Assembly (NCBI GenBank): GCA_009695205.1 | Contig: SIBK01000006.1 | Span: 28,994 to 92,993 of the forward strand | Direction of reading: 5' to 3' | DNA length: 64,000 bases | Source: Pedosphaera sp. | GTDB taxonomy: Bacteria > Verrucomicrobiota > Verrucomicrobiia > Limisphaerales > UBA9464 | Shown: one piece after another, positions 55,022-63,654 of the stretch | How the letters are laid out: every line of letters starts with the position of its first letter | Numbering within the stretch: position 1 is the first letter of the stretch | The notes under the pieces: model-generated | Told to the model about the DNA's origin: nothing | The model's database searches: none | The model's input: only the letters and a program-made list of their open reading frames with translations | Position numbers and translations under genes: made by a program

Positions 55022-55087
55022 ATTAATTACCTGTCCCTTTATCCGTTAGTCCCTTTATCCGTTATTAATTACCTGTCCCTTTATCCG
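55022..55087. repeat. Short direct repeat attaattacctgtccctttatccg at 55022-55045 and 55064-55087, with a partial unit between
   Basis: Exact 24-bp match at 42-bp spacing; gtccctttatccgtt partial copy between. Confidence 0.9.
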
Positions 55088-57339
55088 CGACCCGGTACGG
55101 CGCCACCATGTGACCGGCCGACATCGCGTCGGGAATAATCGCGACCGTGTAGAACCGTTCCGAACTGCGCAGTTCATTCGCCCGGGCCAGCGGATTGCCC
55201 ACCCAGCGGCCGTCCCACTCCACCTGATCCGACCAGTCGGCAAGGTCCTGATAGCTGTTCTGCGCGCCATAGAACGTCTGGATCGTCGCCCAGATGCTGG
55301 CGGGCGTGTGGAAGTCGCAGCCCGTGCCGTTCCACCGCATCGGACCATGTTCGAAGAAGGCCGACGGCTGATGCACCGCGGCGTCGAACCGCGTCGCGTC
55401 CCACGTGCCCTGGGCAAACAACTGCGTCAGCGTGGCGAATCAATAGCAGCTTCCCGGCGGCGCGTTCATGCCCGGGTTGAACGTGGACAGGAAGTACTGC
55501 ACGGCCGATGTCCCGCGCGGGCAACCGCGCAGGTCCGAGGTCGTCTTGAGGAATCCGGGATCGAGATCTTCGCCGAACACCGCCTCGAATTCATTGATGC
55601 CATTGGGTTCGTCGACATTGACGAAGCCCATCGACCACAACGCGGGTTCGCTCCAGCGACGCACCTCCAACTCCGCCACCCGCGTCCACGGCACCCCGCC
55701 CGGCCGGCTCCACAGGTCCCACACCAGCCACGTGTACAGGCCCGGATGCTCGAACACGGACGCCGGCACCCGCACCCGTACGCCGTTCCCGTCCGCGTTG
55801 CGCGACAGCATTGTAACGTCGATCAGATCCGGACCGGACGGCGGAAAGACCGCGCTGGACGGTATGAGGTAAACCCGCGTCTCCGCGTGGAGGTTCAAGG
55901 CACGCGCCGAGACGATCGGATCGGGACTCGCGATCGACGGTCCGGTGGCGCTGGCTTCCCGGAACACCCGTTGCGGATACACCGTGTAGGGCGTCGCACC
56001 GATCGCCTGCACCACGCCGGGTCCGACGTACGCCACACGCACCTCACCGACGCCCAGATTCCCGACGGCATCGCGCGCCGAGATGCGGATGACATTCGTT
56101 CCCGGTGACAATTGGACGGGTTGGGCGAACTGGAATGGCGACGCCGCACCGGTGAGATGCGACATGAATCCCGTGTCGACATACGGCGCGGAACCATCAC
56201 CCGGGATCACTTCCAACGTCGCCGAGTTCAAGGCCACATCCTCGGCAATCGAACCCACCAGGGTGACCGTCACGTGGGCATCCGCAGGACGTGAACTCGG
56301 TTGCGGGATCACGGCGCCATCGACCGGATACTTGATGAAGACGACCGGCACCTGGGTATCCACAACGGTCGGCGGTGGCGTCGGGCCGATCTCGAGATCG
56401 TCGATGGTCTCATACCCGGCAATGGCGCAGTCGAAGTGGACCTCGACGCAGTGCAGATCGAATTCGCGCCGGCAGATTTCCAGCGGCACAACAATGTCGG
56501 TCTGGGGCGACAGCAGGACTTCGTGTTCACCCGCAAGCACCGGAGCCGCCGGGGTTCCGCCGTACGCACGGAACACCACGCGCACCCGCACCGCGGCCTG
56601 GGGCGGATCGAGCCGGATCACGAGCGGATCTGGATCGTATTCACCCGACACCCGGCAGCACAGGGCCTGGCTTCCCGAATGCACATTCACGCCGAGCGCC
56701 TCGCGAGAGACGATCTCGGGCGATCCTTCGAACACCACGCCGGGATAGGGCGGCAATGGTGGTTCCGACGGCGCGATCCTCGAAGTCGATCACCCGGCCC
56801 GACGACGGATACCGGCTGAGTTCGAGTGAATCGATCGCCTCCACCGCGGCGCCGTCATAGAGCACCTCCACCTGCGCCAGATCGCGCTCGAGAATGCGGC
56901 AGATGCTGATCGGCGTGAGCACCGACGGTCCGTCGAAGATCGTGACGGTCTGTTCCACCACGGGCTTCTGGGGATCGGCCTTGGTGAAGCCGCGCACGGT
57001 GACCACCTGCGCCTTGGCTCCGTCGGGATTGCCGACCACGAGCCGGACGAAGCTCTGCGGTTGATCGAACAGGAGGATGAGCGGGTCCGGATCGCTGCCC
57101 GGCTTTGGAATCGGGGCGTTTCTCCGGAGGAAATTCTTAGGGGACGCCGTGGGCAGACCCGAGGCAACCAGACCGCCGCCCGGAATGCTGACACCCGCCG
57201 ACTCCAGACGATCGATGACCTTGCCCACGGGTAGATCATCGAACGTGGTGAACGAATCGATGGCTTCCTGGGCGAACAGGCCCCCGGACAGAAACAGGGC
57301 GGCAGCAAGACCGCCCAACCGACGACACACTCCCTTCAT
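55065..57339 (-). pseudogene. Secreted hypothetical protein, broken by a frameshift near 56757, an in-frame TGA at 55440-55442 and a 3' truncation at the 55-kb repeat
   Basis: 57339-56641 (signal peptide, FDQPQSFVRLVVGNPDG) shifts into 56756-55440 (LPPYPGVVFEGSPEIVSREAL...FDCAIAGYETIDDLEIG), then same-frame continuation FATLTQLFAQGTWDATRFDAAV to 55065. Confidence 0.75.
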
Positions 57340-58450: not shown

Positions 58451-60874
58451 CTATTTGAGATGGATGAGTTCCAGGGATTCCGTTGAGACCTGAATCGCCC
58501 GGATCGTTTCGCGGACGCACTTGGCCTTCATGAGCATTAGCTCCTTGGGAAAGTCCTTTTCATCCTTTTCGAAGTAGTCGGCAATTTTTGTCAGTTCAGG
58601 AATGACCGACTTCGCGTGGGCACCGTAGGTGAGGAGAATCTTCATCAATTCAGGTGTGCGCTCCTGGCTACCCCACGGATTCTGATCGCGCGTGTATTTC
58701 ACGCAGGCGCCGATTCCCTCCTCGATCCGATACTTGGCCAAGAGGCGGAGACCCTTCACACGGATCGAGTCGGCGAACATCTCTCCGCTCGGAGCCGGCT
58801 CGATGATCGCCTTATAGATGGCGGGCAACAACGGTTTGATGTCTTCGGGGGAGAGATTCCGATAGACAGATCCCATGCTGCCCCGGGCGCGGCCGTCCTG
58901 GTTTTCAAGCCCGCCCCTCACGGCCTTGTAGAGCGCCTCGCGATCCACTCCATCCAGCGACCGGTTCAGCATTCCTCCGTCATCGAAAAGGGCGAAGGAA
59001 AGATACCGCTGCTGCATGCCGCGCGGATCGTTCTCCTTGTCGATGGGAGCCAGCAGTTCAAGGAGTTCGGGCACCGTTCGCGTGGCGGGCGCACCGATGC
59101 TTGCCAGTGCCTCAGCCGCTTTGATGCGCACCCAGAGGTCTTTTGTCGCCAATGATTTCCGCAGCGCATCAACGGCAGGTGCTCCGCGCCCGCGAAGGGC
59201 GATCAGGGCCTGGCAGGCACCGTAGCGGGATTCCAGGCGCGGCGAATCGAGCCTTATCAGCAGGGGTGCAAAGGGCACCTCCTTGCGGCGAGCCAGTGCC
59301 ATCGCGGCCCGCTCGCGGACCACTGGCGACCAACTGTCGAGGCGCTCAAAGAGTTGGTCCTCGCTGAGTTTGTCGTAAGCGCTGTTGCGATCCTTGTTGC
59401 TCCAGCCGCGGCCATCGAGGATGAGTGCGTGCGCAGCCGCTGCGTCGAGCTGCGGCGCGGTGCTCGGTCGTTTGCCGGTGAGATAAATTTTCCTCAGCGG
59501 CATCGCATAGGCCAGCAGGTAGCCGCCGGTGCAGTCCCAACCCGCGTAGCTGTCGTCGTCCAGCTCCGGAGGTCCCTGGTGAAGAAAAGAGCCGTCCCAG
59601 CGCCGTGCGAGATCGAAATACCACGCGCCGAACTCCTGCATCCAGGCTCCCGTGGCATTGGGGCCGGACTGGGCGACACCCGGGATCGACCATAGAATGT
59701 TAAAGAAATTACCGGTGTGCCCCGTATCGCGCTCCGGCCCGTGGGAAGCGATGCTCATGCGTGAGAAAAACTCCGCCCCCTTCGTCTCGCCCAGCAGGTT
59801 GAACAATACGGCGGCCATTCCGCACTTGCCGTTGTCGTCGTGATTCTCAATCCACGGATGGTGATCGCCATAGGGGATCGCTCCTTTGCCAATGTAGAAT
59901 CGCAACAGGCGGGCACTGAGTTCGATGGCACGCGCCACCTCCGGATCTTCCACGCCCGCCGCCCAGGCCATCACCAGCGAAATGGTCAGCGGCAATCCCG
60001 GAGAATTCATCATCCCGTAGCCGCCGAGTCGTCCATCGGCCACCGCGAAGCCATGGCCCCACGAGCCAACCGCACTTTGGCCCTTGGCTGCCTCCAAGGC
60101 GAGACGCCGCAGGCCCGGCATGACCGACCGATCGCCGGTCGCCAGCACATACTCCGAGAGCAGCATGATGACGTAGCCGTAGTGCCAGGTCTGCATCGAG
60201 TCGGACGAGAAGCCCGCCGCCCATTCGGCCTCTTTCTTGATCAGCGGGAGGTATGCGGGATTGGCGCTGGCCAACAAGGCGAGCGCATTGAAGGAACGCA
60301 CGATGGGATCTTCATTCTGGGGGGATTTCGCCACTTTTTCGGCAAGCGCCTCACACCCTTGCTCAAGAATGCGCTTCGATTTTGGGCAGTCAAAAGGAGC
60401 AGTGACGCTGTAGTTGCCGAGAACCGGGAGCTTGACGACGACTCCCTCGGATTTGCCGGCCCGCCAGCGGGTCAGCTCCAGCCTTCCTCCGCCCGCCTCG
60501 GATTCGGCGGTGGTGAGTGCTTTGCCGAACTCGGTGCGCGGGTCGTAGGAGAACGCTTTCCCTCCGACACCAAGGATAACGTCCCCGACCGCGAGGATGC
60601 CCTCTGAGGGAGAACCCTTCTCCACTGTCGTGACGGAAATCTGCCGCGCATCGGTGGTCACCATCTTGTCGCAAAACATCCACCCGCGCAGCCCCGTGGG
60701 ACCGAGATTCCAGTCGTGCTTTGCGCCCGCGGGAATGGTGCCGCCCTTGGTAAAGTCGGGAAGGTTCAAGGGCTGGCCCTTGCCAGCGGCCAATACCGGA
60801 GGAGGGGTGGCGAGGAGCGCCACGAGGGCGAGCGAGAAAAGAGAGGTCTTCATCAGTTTGGTTTTTTGAGTCAT
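58451..60874 (-). CDS. DUF6288-like secreted protein with PDZ-like and HEAT-like regions
   Basis: KHDWNLGPTGLRGWMFCDKMVTTDARQISVTTVEKGSPSEGILAVGDVILGVGGKAF N-terminus; HEAT-like repeats (VRERAAMALARR, VRIKAAEALASIG). Confidence 0.8.
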   Translation of the reverse strand: MTQKTKLMKTSLFSLALVALLATPPPVLAAGKGQPLNLPDFTKGGTIPAGAKHDWNLGPTGLRGWMFCDKMVTTDARQISVTTVEKGSPSEGILAVGDVILGVGGKAFSYDPRTEFGKALTTAESEAGGGRLELTRWRAGKSEGVVVKLPVLGNYSVTAPFDCPKSKRILEQGCEALAEKVAKSPQNEDPIVRSFNALALLASANPAYLPLIKKEAEWAAGFSSDSMQTWHYGYVIMLLSEYVLATGDRSVMPGLRRLALEAAKGQSAVGSWGHGFAVADGRLGGYGMMNSPGLPLTISLVMAWAAGVEDPEVARAIELSARLLRFYIGKGAIPYGDHHPWIENHDDNGKCGMAAVLFNLLGETKGAEFFSRMSIASHGPERDTGHTGNFFNILWSIPGVAQSGPNATGAWMQEFGAWYFDLARRWDGSFLHQGPPELDDDSYAGWDCTGGYLLAYAMPLRKIYLTGKRPSTAPQLDAAAAHALILDGRGWSNKDRNSAYDKLSEDQLFERLDSWSPVVRERAAMALARRKEVPFAPLLIRLDSPRLESRYGACQALIALRGRGAPAVDALRKSLATKDLWVRIKAAEALASIGAPATRTVPELLELLAPIDKENDPRGMQQRYLSFALFDDGGMLNRSLDGVDREALYKAVRGGLENQDGRARGSMGSVYRNLSPEDIKPLLPAIYKAIIEPAPSGEMFADSIRVKGLRLLAKYRIEEGIGACVKYTRDQNPWGSQERTPELMKILLTYGAHAKSVIPELTKIADYFEKDEKDFPKELMLMKAKCVRETIRAIQVSTESLELIHLK

Positions 60875-60904
60875 CTGAACATTCGAATTCTTCGCACACC
60901 ATGG

Positions 60905-62149
60905 TTATTGGAAACCCCCATGGATAATCTCCAAAGAGAAGACGGCATAGGCCGTGACGAGGTTTGGGTCCTTTTCCCACCAACGCCCATTGGTGTTCGA
61001 CCAGGAGCCGTCCCGCTGCTGCAGATTGATGAGGCGCATCGCCACCTCGCGGCGCCAGTCCACCTTCCGACCGTCCTTCAAATCGAGCGTGTCCAGTCCG
61101 CGCGTGTTCAACGCCTTCGTCATGAGGTGCAAGTAGTAATAAAGGCCCTGCAGCTCCATTCCGGGATTCTCATCAAGAGTGTAATTTGAACGCAGCCAGT
61201 CCAACACGGCGACCACACGGGGATCGTCCCGCTTGAGGTCCGCATAGATGTAGCTCAGCAGCCCCGAGTAACTGACGCTCCCATAGGAACGCAACGCGAC
61301 ACGACCGGTGGCAGCATTCGTCTCGGCTCCAGCCATGCTGTGGCCTGGATAATAAACAAACCCACCTTTGTTTGTCGCGTCATCCGTCACCCACCCTTGT
61401 TGGTTGTAACTTGGGAGATTCTGGCAGTTCTGGATGAATTGAATTAGGGCTGCCCAATTGAGGTCTCGGGACACGGGGCTGTTACTGTCCACCACGAGAT
61501 GCCGCGTGTAATAGATCGCCTCCACCGCGTTCAAGGTGTTGTTCATGTCGGAGTGGGCGTATTTGCTGCCATAACCAACGCCACCATCGAACGGCGAATC
61601 CGCCTGGCCAGGTTTGTCGATATCGATCTGGGACTTGATGAGGAAAGCCCGTCCGCGTCGGAGCAAGTCATCGTATGCCGGATTCCTTGCCGCCAGCAAC
61701 GCCATCATGGAGATCGATGTGTTGTAGTTGATGAGCTCCGCGCGGAATATGCTGCCGTCTGGCTTTGCCAACGTCGTGATGAATTCATAACCCTTCGCAA
61801 GGGATTCGGAGAGATTGGTTTGGTAACGGCCCGTGGGCTCTCCCATGAATGCGGTGAGCACCAGTGCGGTGACCGCAGTATGATCCGGCGTGGACCACCA
61901 ACCGTTGGTATTCTGACTCATCCGCAGCGAATCCAGGCCCCTGGTGATGGCGTGCTGGATTTCATTACCAAACGAGACGTCCCTGGACGATAGCACGGTG
62001 ATCGGCTGTACCGTGTCCGCAGCCGAAACCATCTGGATGGCGAAAGCGCACCCTAGGGCAAAGAGCAGCCCTCGGGAACAGCGTGCAGGATTGGTCCTCA
62101 TTCTCCCGACAAAAACGGTTTCACAGTGGAGTTTCATGGTCGTGGTCAT
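60905..62149 (-). CDS. Secreted protein with prenyltransferase/squalene-cyclase-like alpha-alpha repeats
   Basis: RGLDSLRMSQNTNGWWSTPDHTAVTALVLTAFMG and MRLINLQQRDGSWSNTNGRWWEKDPNLVTAYAVFSLE repeat motifs; signal peptide. Confidence 0.8.
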   Translation of the reverse strand: MTTTMKLHCETVFVGRMRTNPARCSRGLLFALGCAFAIQMVSAADTVQPITVLSSRDVSFGNEIQHAITRGLDSLRMSQNTNGWWSTPDHTAVTALVLTAFMGEPTGRYQTNLSESLAKGYEFITTLAKPDGSIFRAELINYNTSISMMALLAARNPAYDDLLRRGRAFLIKSQIDIDKPGQADSPFDGGVGYGSKYAHSDMNNTLNAVEAIYYTRHLVVDSNSPVSRDLNWAALIQFIQNCQNLPSYNQQGWVTDDATNKGGFVYYPGHSMAGAETNAATGRVALRSYGSVSYSGLLSYIYADLKRDDPRVVAVLDWLRSNYTLDENPGMELQGLYYYLHLMTKALNTRGLDTLDLKDGRKVDWRREVAMRLINLQQRDGSWSNTNGRWWEKDPNLVTAYAVFSLEIIHGGFQ

Positions 62150-63654
62150 TTCTTGGGAATTCCTGGCATGGGGATGTCCAGGTAGAGGTGGACAACCTTG
62201 TGGGTTGGCAATACCGGTTCAAGGAACCTTGTTAGCTGCCCGTAGCGAAGTGTTGAAGGAGCAAACACCATGATCACCGGTGGCTTGAGTCGAGTGGTTC
62301 TCTTCCTGGCCAGCTCATCTGCGGCATCCATTTCTTTGCGGAGCTCCCGCGGACCAGGCACCCACAACTCGACCACCTCCAATTCCGACCGCGAGGCGGA
62401 TTTCTTCCAAACGGATTCGATCAGGAGCAGATGACCCGAGACCTGGCCGCTTGCTTCTGACAAGGCAAGTTCCCAGGGATGAAACAGTCGAGCCTCCCGA
62501 TCCATTAATTCCGGGTCCGGAATGAGCGCACGGTAGTACAATTGACCGACCGGAGGAGGCTCAATGCGGATGCCCTTCTCCCGGTCGATGGTGGAAAGAA
62601 TAGTGGCGAGTGCACGCGCCTGGCTCAGTTCGACGTTGTCGGCGAAACTGACCACCACAAAATAGTCACGCGCCTTTCGGTCGAGTGCGGCCAGGGCTTC
62701 AATCACCGAGATCAAGGTCTCCCTGCTGTTGAGCACCGTGTCCCCATCTTTGAGTTGCACACGCAGGTTGGCCAACCGGGCCCCGTCGTTCGCGGGCTGA
62801 TCGCTCGGGGCCTTGTCCGCCTCGATCGTCAGAATCAAATCCTTCACGCGTTTGGAGCCCTCCCTGTTGGCGGGCTCAATGATCAGGGTCAGAAGGGTCC
62901 CCTCGGCCAATGGGTATTCCGGATTGATGATCGTGTTCTGATAAACCAGTTCCTTTTGCGCCGAGTAGGGAACTTCAAGGACGGAGTAAGTCGAATTGAA
63001 AAGCGAGGCGATGGACATCGGCTGATACTCGTCAGCGGCGTAGAGTGTCCTGCGGGGATCGTTGAGGGCCGGCACTTTTCTGGAACCGGTGAACAGGAAT
63101 CCGTCCTCACGCAGGGTTTTTCCAGTGCGGCGATCCAACAGCAGTTTCTCCAGACGGAGCGGCGGTTCGCTCGTCCCGACAACGCTCAGGATGAACGTTT
63201 CGCCCTTGGGCCAGTAGCGGAGCGAGGCGGGGTCGAAGGATTCCCCCGGATCTGTGCCGATGAACTGGATCGCTTGATGAACGTCGCTGGGCTTGGCGAA
63301 GGAGATCAGGAGCGCCTCGTAGCTGTGGTCGCTGGACTCATCGACGATGGTGAACTCGCAGGGCGCATTCAGGCCGAGCGCCGTTCGTTCGACCATCACT
63401 TCAACACGTCTCGCCTTTTTGTCGGCCACGAGTCCGGGCCGGACGAGGAGGTTTGTGTCGCCGTTGAGTTCCTTTCGGTTGAGTTCGTAGGCAGTGGCCG
63501 CCCGCTGTTTGTTCTGCGCGTGGCCCTGCGGTTTGATTTTGTAGGGCGTCTCGTCCTGCGCCGGCAGAGGCGCGGTCACGAGGAATAGCGCGGCCACGAG
63601 ATGAAGCCCAAAGAACTTCTCCACCAGTACTCTCGTTGTGCAACGCCGCATCAT
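62146..63654 (-). CDS. Secreted protein with YdjY-like domain
   Basis: RRVEVMVERTALGLNAPCEFTIVDESSDHSYEALLISFAKPSDVHQAIQFIGTDPG resembles YdjY domains; stop overlaps the next start (ATGA). Confidence 0.6.
   Translation of the reverse strand: MMRRCTTRVLVEKFFGLHLVAALFLVTAPLPAQDETPYKIKPQGHAQNKQRAATAYELNRKELNGDTNLLVRPGLVADKKARRVEVMVERTALGLNAPCEFTIVDESSDHSYEALLISFAKPSDVHQAIQFIGTDPGESFDPASLRYWPKGETFILSVVGTSEPPLRLEKLLLDRRTGKTLREDGFLFTGSRKVPALNDPRRTLYAADEYQPMSIASLFNSTYSVLEVPYSAQKELVYQNTIINPEYPLAEGTLLTLIIEPANREGSKRVKDLILTIEADKAPSDQPANDGARLANLRVQLKDGDTVLNSRETLISVIEALAALDRKARDYFVVVSFADNVELSQARALATILSTIDREKGIRIEPPPVGQLYYRALIPDPELMDREARLFHPWELALSEASGQVSGHLLLIESVWKKSASRSELEVVELWVPGPRELRKEMDAADELARKRTTRLKPPVIMVFAPSTLRYGQLTRFLEPVLPTHKVVHLYLDIPMPGIPKK

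Follow-up and report, generated by a model that had tools for sequence, protein, structure and literature searches.

Exported YdjY-like and cyclase-fold proteins of a Pedosphaera genome as possible partners of an ebo-type pathway

What do three adjoining genes for exported proteins, none of them with a known role, contribute to the bacterium that carries them? The question is raised by a window of 64,000 nucleotides from a Pedosphaera sp. of the Verrucomicrobiota (contig SIBK01000006.1, positions 28,994 to 92,993), which forms the end of its contig (C115 here) in a draft genome of 4.95 Mb and encodes on the minus strand a protein with a YdjY-like domain (P1), an alpha/alpha-toroid protein (P2) and a protein with a DUF6288 domain and HEAT repeats (P3). 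An original prediction, made from the sequence alone, regarded the three as an exported unit of no known role, a view that our analysis supports, and proposed that they act in surface assembly or protease control. We favour a different function, and give a probability of roughly 0.45 to the reading in which both P1 and P2 are exported to serve as partners in an isoprenoid-cyclitol pathway of the ebo type. The linkage of YdjY and P2 genes to ebo genes, which was found outside the window, is a stronger lead than protease control.

Linkage of YdjY and P2 genes to ebo genes

A P2 profile search of genome contigs returned 377 relatives, the best 80 of which were examined, which gave 74 loci where a P2 gene was called. 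In 41 of the 74, P2 has a YdjY gene on its own strand no more than two genes away; a DUF6288 gene is that close in only 11. To judge from the sequences, the core unit is the YdjY–P2 pair, which DUF6288 genes from two deep clades would have joined. Two of the loci (L161 and L171) are on contigs labelled Klebsiella pneumoniae and Proteobacteria; their P2 falls among Verrucomicrobiota sequences, and they are probably mislabelled metagenome-assembled genomes.

Among the same best 80 relatives, ebo genes accompany P2 in all 15 Desulfobacterota-type loci, which comprise Geobacter and its relatives, Desulfobacterales and some metagenome-assembled genomes with other labels, and a YdjY gene adjoins P2 in most of them; EboE of one such locus (L215) scores 423 bits, above the NCBIfam cut-off. 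An even draw of 244 genomes from the class that includes Geobacter sp. OR-1 contained 14 with P2 and 20 with EboE; every one of the 14 P2-positive genomes has EboE, as do 6 of the 230 others (Fisher P=1.9e-18, with no phylogenetic correction). The two genes are on the same contig and strand in all 14, at a distance of 2.3–14 kb, and the usual order is YdjY-P2-EboD-A-B-E-F-C. Two genomes (L269 and L270) have a reshuffled arrangement, in which a giant PKD protein, a PEP-CTERM protein and YdjY stand between EboB and EboE, and the set is intact. The linkage of YdjY and P2 to ebo in Geobacter relatives is firm. The Desulfobacterales-type loci (L183, L184, L194 and L205) have INO1 (PF07994, 188 bits) upstream of YdjY-P2, with EboD not seen, in line with the proposal that the ebo product is an isoprenoid-cyclitol (PMC5133447). 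The ebo cluster (eboA-F, or edb in Pseudomonas) shares a gene run with YdjY and P2 in both the Geobacter-type and the Desulfobacterales-type genomes, whereas no YdjY or cyclase-fold partner is named for the described clusters in the parts of PMC5133447 and PMC6282210 that were searched.

A PEP-CTERM protein of 193–237 aa is encoded near or inside the YdjY-P2-ebo operon in L202, L206, L209, L215, L217, L221 and L224, and also in L269, L270, L272, L274, L276 and L277. Taken with the link between exosortase and scytonemin in Nostoc (PMC12188702), these neighbours hint at an exosortase connection of ebo. Giant secreted proteins of 2.8–3.2 kaa are encoded in or beside the ebo operon (L269:5669-15259, L279:3934-13557 and L215:3-8291), and the one in L269 combines PKD and FG-GAP repeats with a P2-like domain.

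In the genome of the window, sequence searches located EboA to EboF at four places, EboA and EboB on C129, EboC on C137, EboE on C68 (above the NF035939 cut-off) and EboD and EboF on C126; all six genes are present, unlike the clustered genes of the Geobacter relatives in being unlinked to P2. Unclustered ebo genes have been reported for Planctomycetes (PMC5133447). Two loci bridge the arrangements: in L216, P2 lies head-to-head with a complete eboABECDF set that has a P1-type gene at its far end, and L100 pairs P2-YdjY-DUF6288 with a divergent EboA. We have moderate confidence in transferring the ebo link to the window's genome.

The fold of P2 and the YdjY family

Matches of P2 to squalene-cyclase families are weak and below cut-offs, and the single sequence gave no match in the PDB, while the profile of the family matches squalene-hopene cyclase with an E value of 2.8e-11. 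The AlphaFold2 model (pLDDT 92.3) is a single-domain alpha/alpha toroid with a cyclase fold, and its best PDB matches by Foldseek are MstE and monodomain cyclases of the squalene-hopene type (E 4.5e-7, TM about 0.55, 13% identity). Matches to the beta subunits of protein prenyltransferases (1jcq_B and 3dra_B) are weaker, and no alpha-subunit neighbour was identified in the locus tables. Squalene-hopene cyclase itself is about 630 aa long, with two domains and a DxDD motif; P2 shares its QW-type repeats and differs in its single domain and predicted export. MstE (PDB 6sbb-6sbg), a cyclase of prenylated dihydroxybenzoate (PMC9401909), is a single-domain toroid of similar size, from which P2 differs in its signal-peptide-like N terminus and its lack of a DxDD-type acid. 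The exported alpha/alpha toroid with QW motifs that the original prediction had seen in P2, and for which it suggested structure prediction, was upheld by the confident model; its statement that the protein is unlike cytosolic terpene cyclases proved too strong, since monodomain type II terpene cyclases are the best fold matches.

P2 combines the toroid fold and QW-type repeats of a type II terpene cyclase, as seen in the model, the Foldseek matches, the motifs and the squalene-hopene cyclase profile, with no DxDD general acid, and for want of that motif we do not class it as a plain terpene cyclase. Its DMNNT motif resembles the DxDDT site of class II cyclases without the general acid and may be equivalent to it. 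Since the acid is missing, any chemistry would be non-canonical, and a binding role stays a live rival.

P1 scores 42.7 bits against the YdjY family model NF040466, under the curated cut-off of 50, whereas the short YdjY partners of its relatives reach 122–151 bits; P1 aligns to these partners across the whole domain (hhalign 95.9%). The YdjY profiles found no convincing relative in the PDB. Escherichia coli YdjY (ydjXYZ, in the order DedA-YdjY-DedA) belongs with the short partners to the NF040466 family, and P1 differs from it in its score below the cut-off, in being twice as long and in its extra C-terminal part. The DedA genes that flank E. coli ydjY on both sides belong to a family that includes undecaprenyl phosphate flippases (PMC9876793, PMC12893004), and by analogy this neighbourhood gives a hint, but no more, that YdjY proteins handle membrane isoprenoids.

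In a pathway of this type a prenylated small molecule would be made by a cyclitol- or sugar-forming enzyme (EboD or an inositol phosphate synthase) together with TIM-barrel enzymes, a hydrolase resembling phosphodiesterases and EboC, a prenyltransferase of the UbiA type. The ebo genes are needed to bring a metabolite over the inner membrane, as in the periplasmic export of the scytonemin precursor in Nostoc (PMC6282210). They have also been implicated in prenylation, and farnesylation by an EboC-type enzyme has been described (PMC9235831). For an exported protein that has the fold of a prenylated-aromatic-acid cyclase and is encoded, in other lineages, beside EboC and its partners, the simplest reading is that it acts on the prenyl part of the exported product or carries it. 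P2 would receive the isoprenoid portion of the ebo product outside the cytoplasm and would either rearrange it with a non-canonical acid or only bind and carry it; the YdjY protein would help, possibly through presentation of the lipid at the membrane. In the lineage of the window a DUF6288/HEAT protein would have been added, most likely one that acts on or scaffolds a glycan receiving the product, and this is the least supported step. A narrower version, in which the cyclase-fold protein is an enzyme that finishes the prenylated ebo product outside the cytoplasm together with YdjY, the two being the missing exported half of the pathway, seems unlikely to us. We know of no extra-cytoplasmic location described for class II cyclases.

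P3, co-occurrence and the alternatives

P3 matches PF19805 (DUF6288) over the full length of the model (positions 1–402) with 526.1 bits against a gathering cut-off of 26.3, and it differs from the bare domain in the HEAT repeats that follow and in the placement of its gene behind P1-P2; its PDZ matches are weak and below cut-offs. Confidence in the model of full-length P3 is low, with mainly HEAT-type proteins among its structure matches, and the DUF6288 profile gave no convincing match in the PDB. No mention of a function for DUF6288 (PF19805) was found in the open-access literature searched, and among the matches listed there no paper names a YdjY domain. A relationship of P2 and DUF6288 as toroids was unsupported (hhalign, 33 columns at 45%).

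Related genomes recovered by the searches bear mostly the label Verrucomicrobiota, several being labelled Pedosphaera or Limisphaerales. Co-occurrence was examined in 96 genomes of the window's genus, family and order, in which DUF6288 was found in 31, P2 in 52 and P1 in 17. Of the 26 genomes with a strong DUF6288 match, 24 have P2 as well (Fisher P=2e-6), 19 of them with no more than 5 kb between the two genes, so the families do co-occur, the failure of which the original prediction had named as grounds for abandoning its proposal. The gene order of the window, P1-P2-DUF6288, recurs in about a dozen loci, and the arrangements P2-YdjY-DUF6288 and DUF6288-P1-P2 also occur. The DUF6288 tree has two deep clades, each with members linked to YdjY/P2, and on its supported branches the linked and unlinked states must have switched at least three times; the locus whose P2 is closest to that of the window (76%, L086) has a DUF6288 of the other clade in the same slot. 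This pattern suggests that DUF6288 joined, or was replaced in, the YdjY–P2 unit more than once. A second DUF6288 gene of the window's genome (L006, G000:C19:18526-19553) is split between frames close to the end of its contig and lies behind genes that, named by eye, we take to be of planctomycete cytochrome/DUF1553-like and DUF1501-like type.

Several observations weigh against the ebo reading. In the window no ebo gene lies near P2, and none of the four ebo places is linked to it. Within the window's order EboE is found in 46 of 52 P2-positive and 34 of 44 P2-negative genomes, a difference that is not significant (P=0.12) in an order where EboE is all but universal; three P2-positive genomes (G064, G082 and G088) show neither EboB nor EboE. 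The 14 genomes of the Geobacter class are not independent, the Desulfobacterota P2 copies being one clade: in the midpoint-rooted P2 tree the 14 of the 15 Desulfobacterota-type loci that were included form one supported clade among Verrucomicrobiota sequences. The pairing with YdjY is itself partial, at only 41 of the 74 P2 loci. P2 has a DxxNT motif with a variable third place and no DxDD, which occurs anywhere in only 3 of 61 sequences, and its fold also matches the sugar enzymes AprG, MmpH and GH76. Experimental work on P2 or DUF6288 proteins was not found in the open-access literature searched.

The matches to sugar enzymes bring in a doubtful but coherent alternative, in which P2 and DUF6288 are exported carbohydrate enzymes of toroid or related helical fold that degrade or remodel sulfated or acetylated polysaccharides, with YdjY as an accessory. 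It would account for the sulfatases and SASA acetylesterases that adjoin DUF6288 away from P2 (L112, L141 and L144) and that lie near DUF6288 together with P2 in L096, for the invariant His, Asn and Lys of DUF6288 and for the PA14 protein beside the P1-type gene of L216; yet outside the PVC group P2 and YdjY are linked to ebo and not to sulfatases, the top fold matches of P2 are terpene cyclases, and DUF6288 is rarely its near neighbour in the loci counted above. If P2 were instead a non-catalytic isoprenoid-binding carrier, a lipid chaperone that works with YdjY to bring a prenylated compound off the inner membrane and towards the surface, the loss of the general acid beside invariant residues at the pocket rim would be expected, and the requirement of ebo genes for metabolite export (PMC6282210) and the position of E. 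coli ydjY between DedA genes would fit; the 43 positions invariant across 61 sequences from two phyla are, however, what an enzyme would show, and we consider a pure carrier improbable.

The role first proposed for the locus, with the PDZ and HEAT parts of P3 handling exported proteins and P2 as a structural toroid, appears very unlikely as a whole. A connection with the surface gained some ground from the PEP-CTERM and giant PKD proteins, the latter with a P2-like domain, beside the operons of Geobacter relatives, and P3 does have HEAT repeats and a stretch resembling PDZ. For protease control no indication was found: the PDZ matches fall below cut-offs, and the locus tables examined show no conserved neighbour that encodes a protease or chaperone. 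Our preferred reading remains that P1 and P2 serve an ebo-type pathway from outside the cytoplasm.

The gene run in the window

The three-gene layout was borne out by the list of open reading frames (ORFs), including the coordinates and strand first given for it, the ATGA shared by the P1 stop and the P2 start (TCAT on the plus strand) and the gap of 30 bp before P3 (Table 1). With homologues of 50–76% identity in many genomes, P1, P2 and P3 are by sequence real coding genes beyond doubt, and translational coupling of P1 and P2 through the ATGA is likely. All three have signal-peptide-like N termini, as originally predicted, each with a positively charged n-region, a hydrophobic core and AxA-type sites by a simple heuristic. 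The partial ORF upstream of P1 has no relative among the neighbour genes of related loci, and the operon may in fact begin with it.

Table 1. Features of the P1-P2-P3 gene run, in window coordinates
Feature	Coordinates	Strand	Description and basis
Partial ORF upstream of P1	63651..63998	-	ATGA overlap with P1; truncated by the contig end at the window edge
P1	62146..63654	-	502 aa; signal peptide, YdjY-like domain and C-terminal part without assigned fold (long YdjY type)
YdjY-like domain of P1 (aa 76-261)	62872..63429	-	NF040466 match and hhalign
ATGA stop/start overlap of P1 and P2	62146..62149	-	ORF coordinates; identical 4-base overlap in most relatives
P2	60905..62149	-	414 aa; exported alpha/alpha toroid, predicted type II terpene cyclase fold
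P2 first QW-type motif, QNTNGWW	61895..61915	-	Motif scan and alignment
P2 motif NYNT	61718..61729	-	Start of another inner helix; second N and T invariant; model and alignment
P2 motif DMNNT	61535..61549	-	D, N and T invariant, third place N/S/A/G; 61 sequences
P2 last QW-type motif, QQRDGSW	61001..61021	-	Motif scan and alignment
P3	58451..60874	-	807 aa; signal peptide, DUF6288, HEAT repeats; PF19805 526 bits, PF13646 39 bits
DUF6288 domain of P3 (aa 77-468)	59471..60646	-	Invariant H/N/K/Y residues (PYGDH..H..NGK)
Best HEAT_2 stretch of P3 (aa 537-609)	59048..59266	-	Pfam profile match (PF13646)

Elsewhere in the window, three adjoining or overlapping minus-strand ORFs (55065-55421, 55440-56756 and 56641-57339), the middle one without a Pfam match, look like a single secreted protein broken by frameshifts. 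A role of P1-P3 in anti-phage defence was dropped, the PADLOC models giving weak HEAT matches in P3 only.

The distribution of the ebo genes takes in many phyla and extends to algal plastids, and in Nostoc the scytonemin precursor depends on them for its export. The YdjY and cyclase-fold proteins, of which no mention was found in the ebo papers searched, would be new exported partners of this known pathway, and as two exported proteins that in the sampled Geobacter class occur without exception together with ebo genes they offer new handles on it, with a ligand pocket predicted to lie outside the cytoplasm. The PEP-CTERM surroundings hint at the destination of the product, while YdjY gains a testable role and DUF6288 a first neighbourhood.

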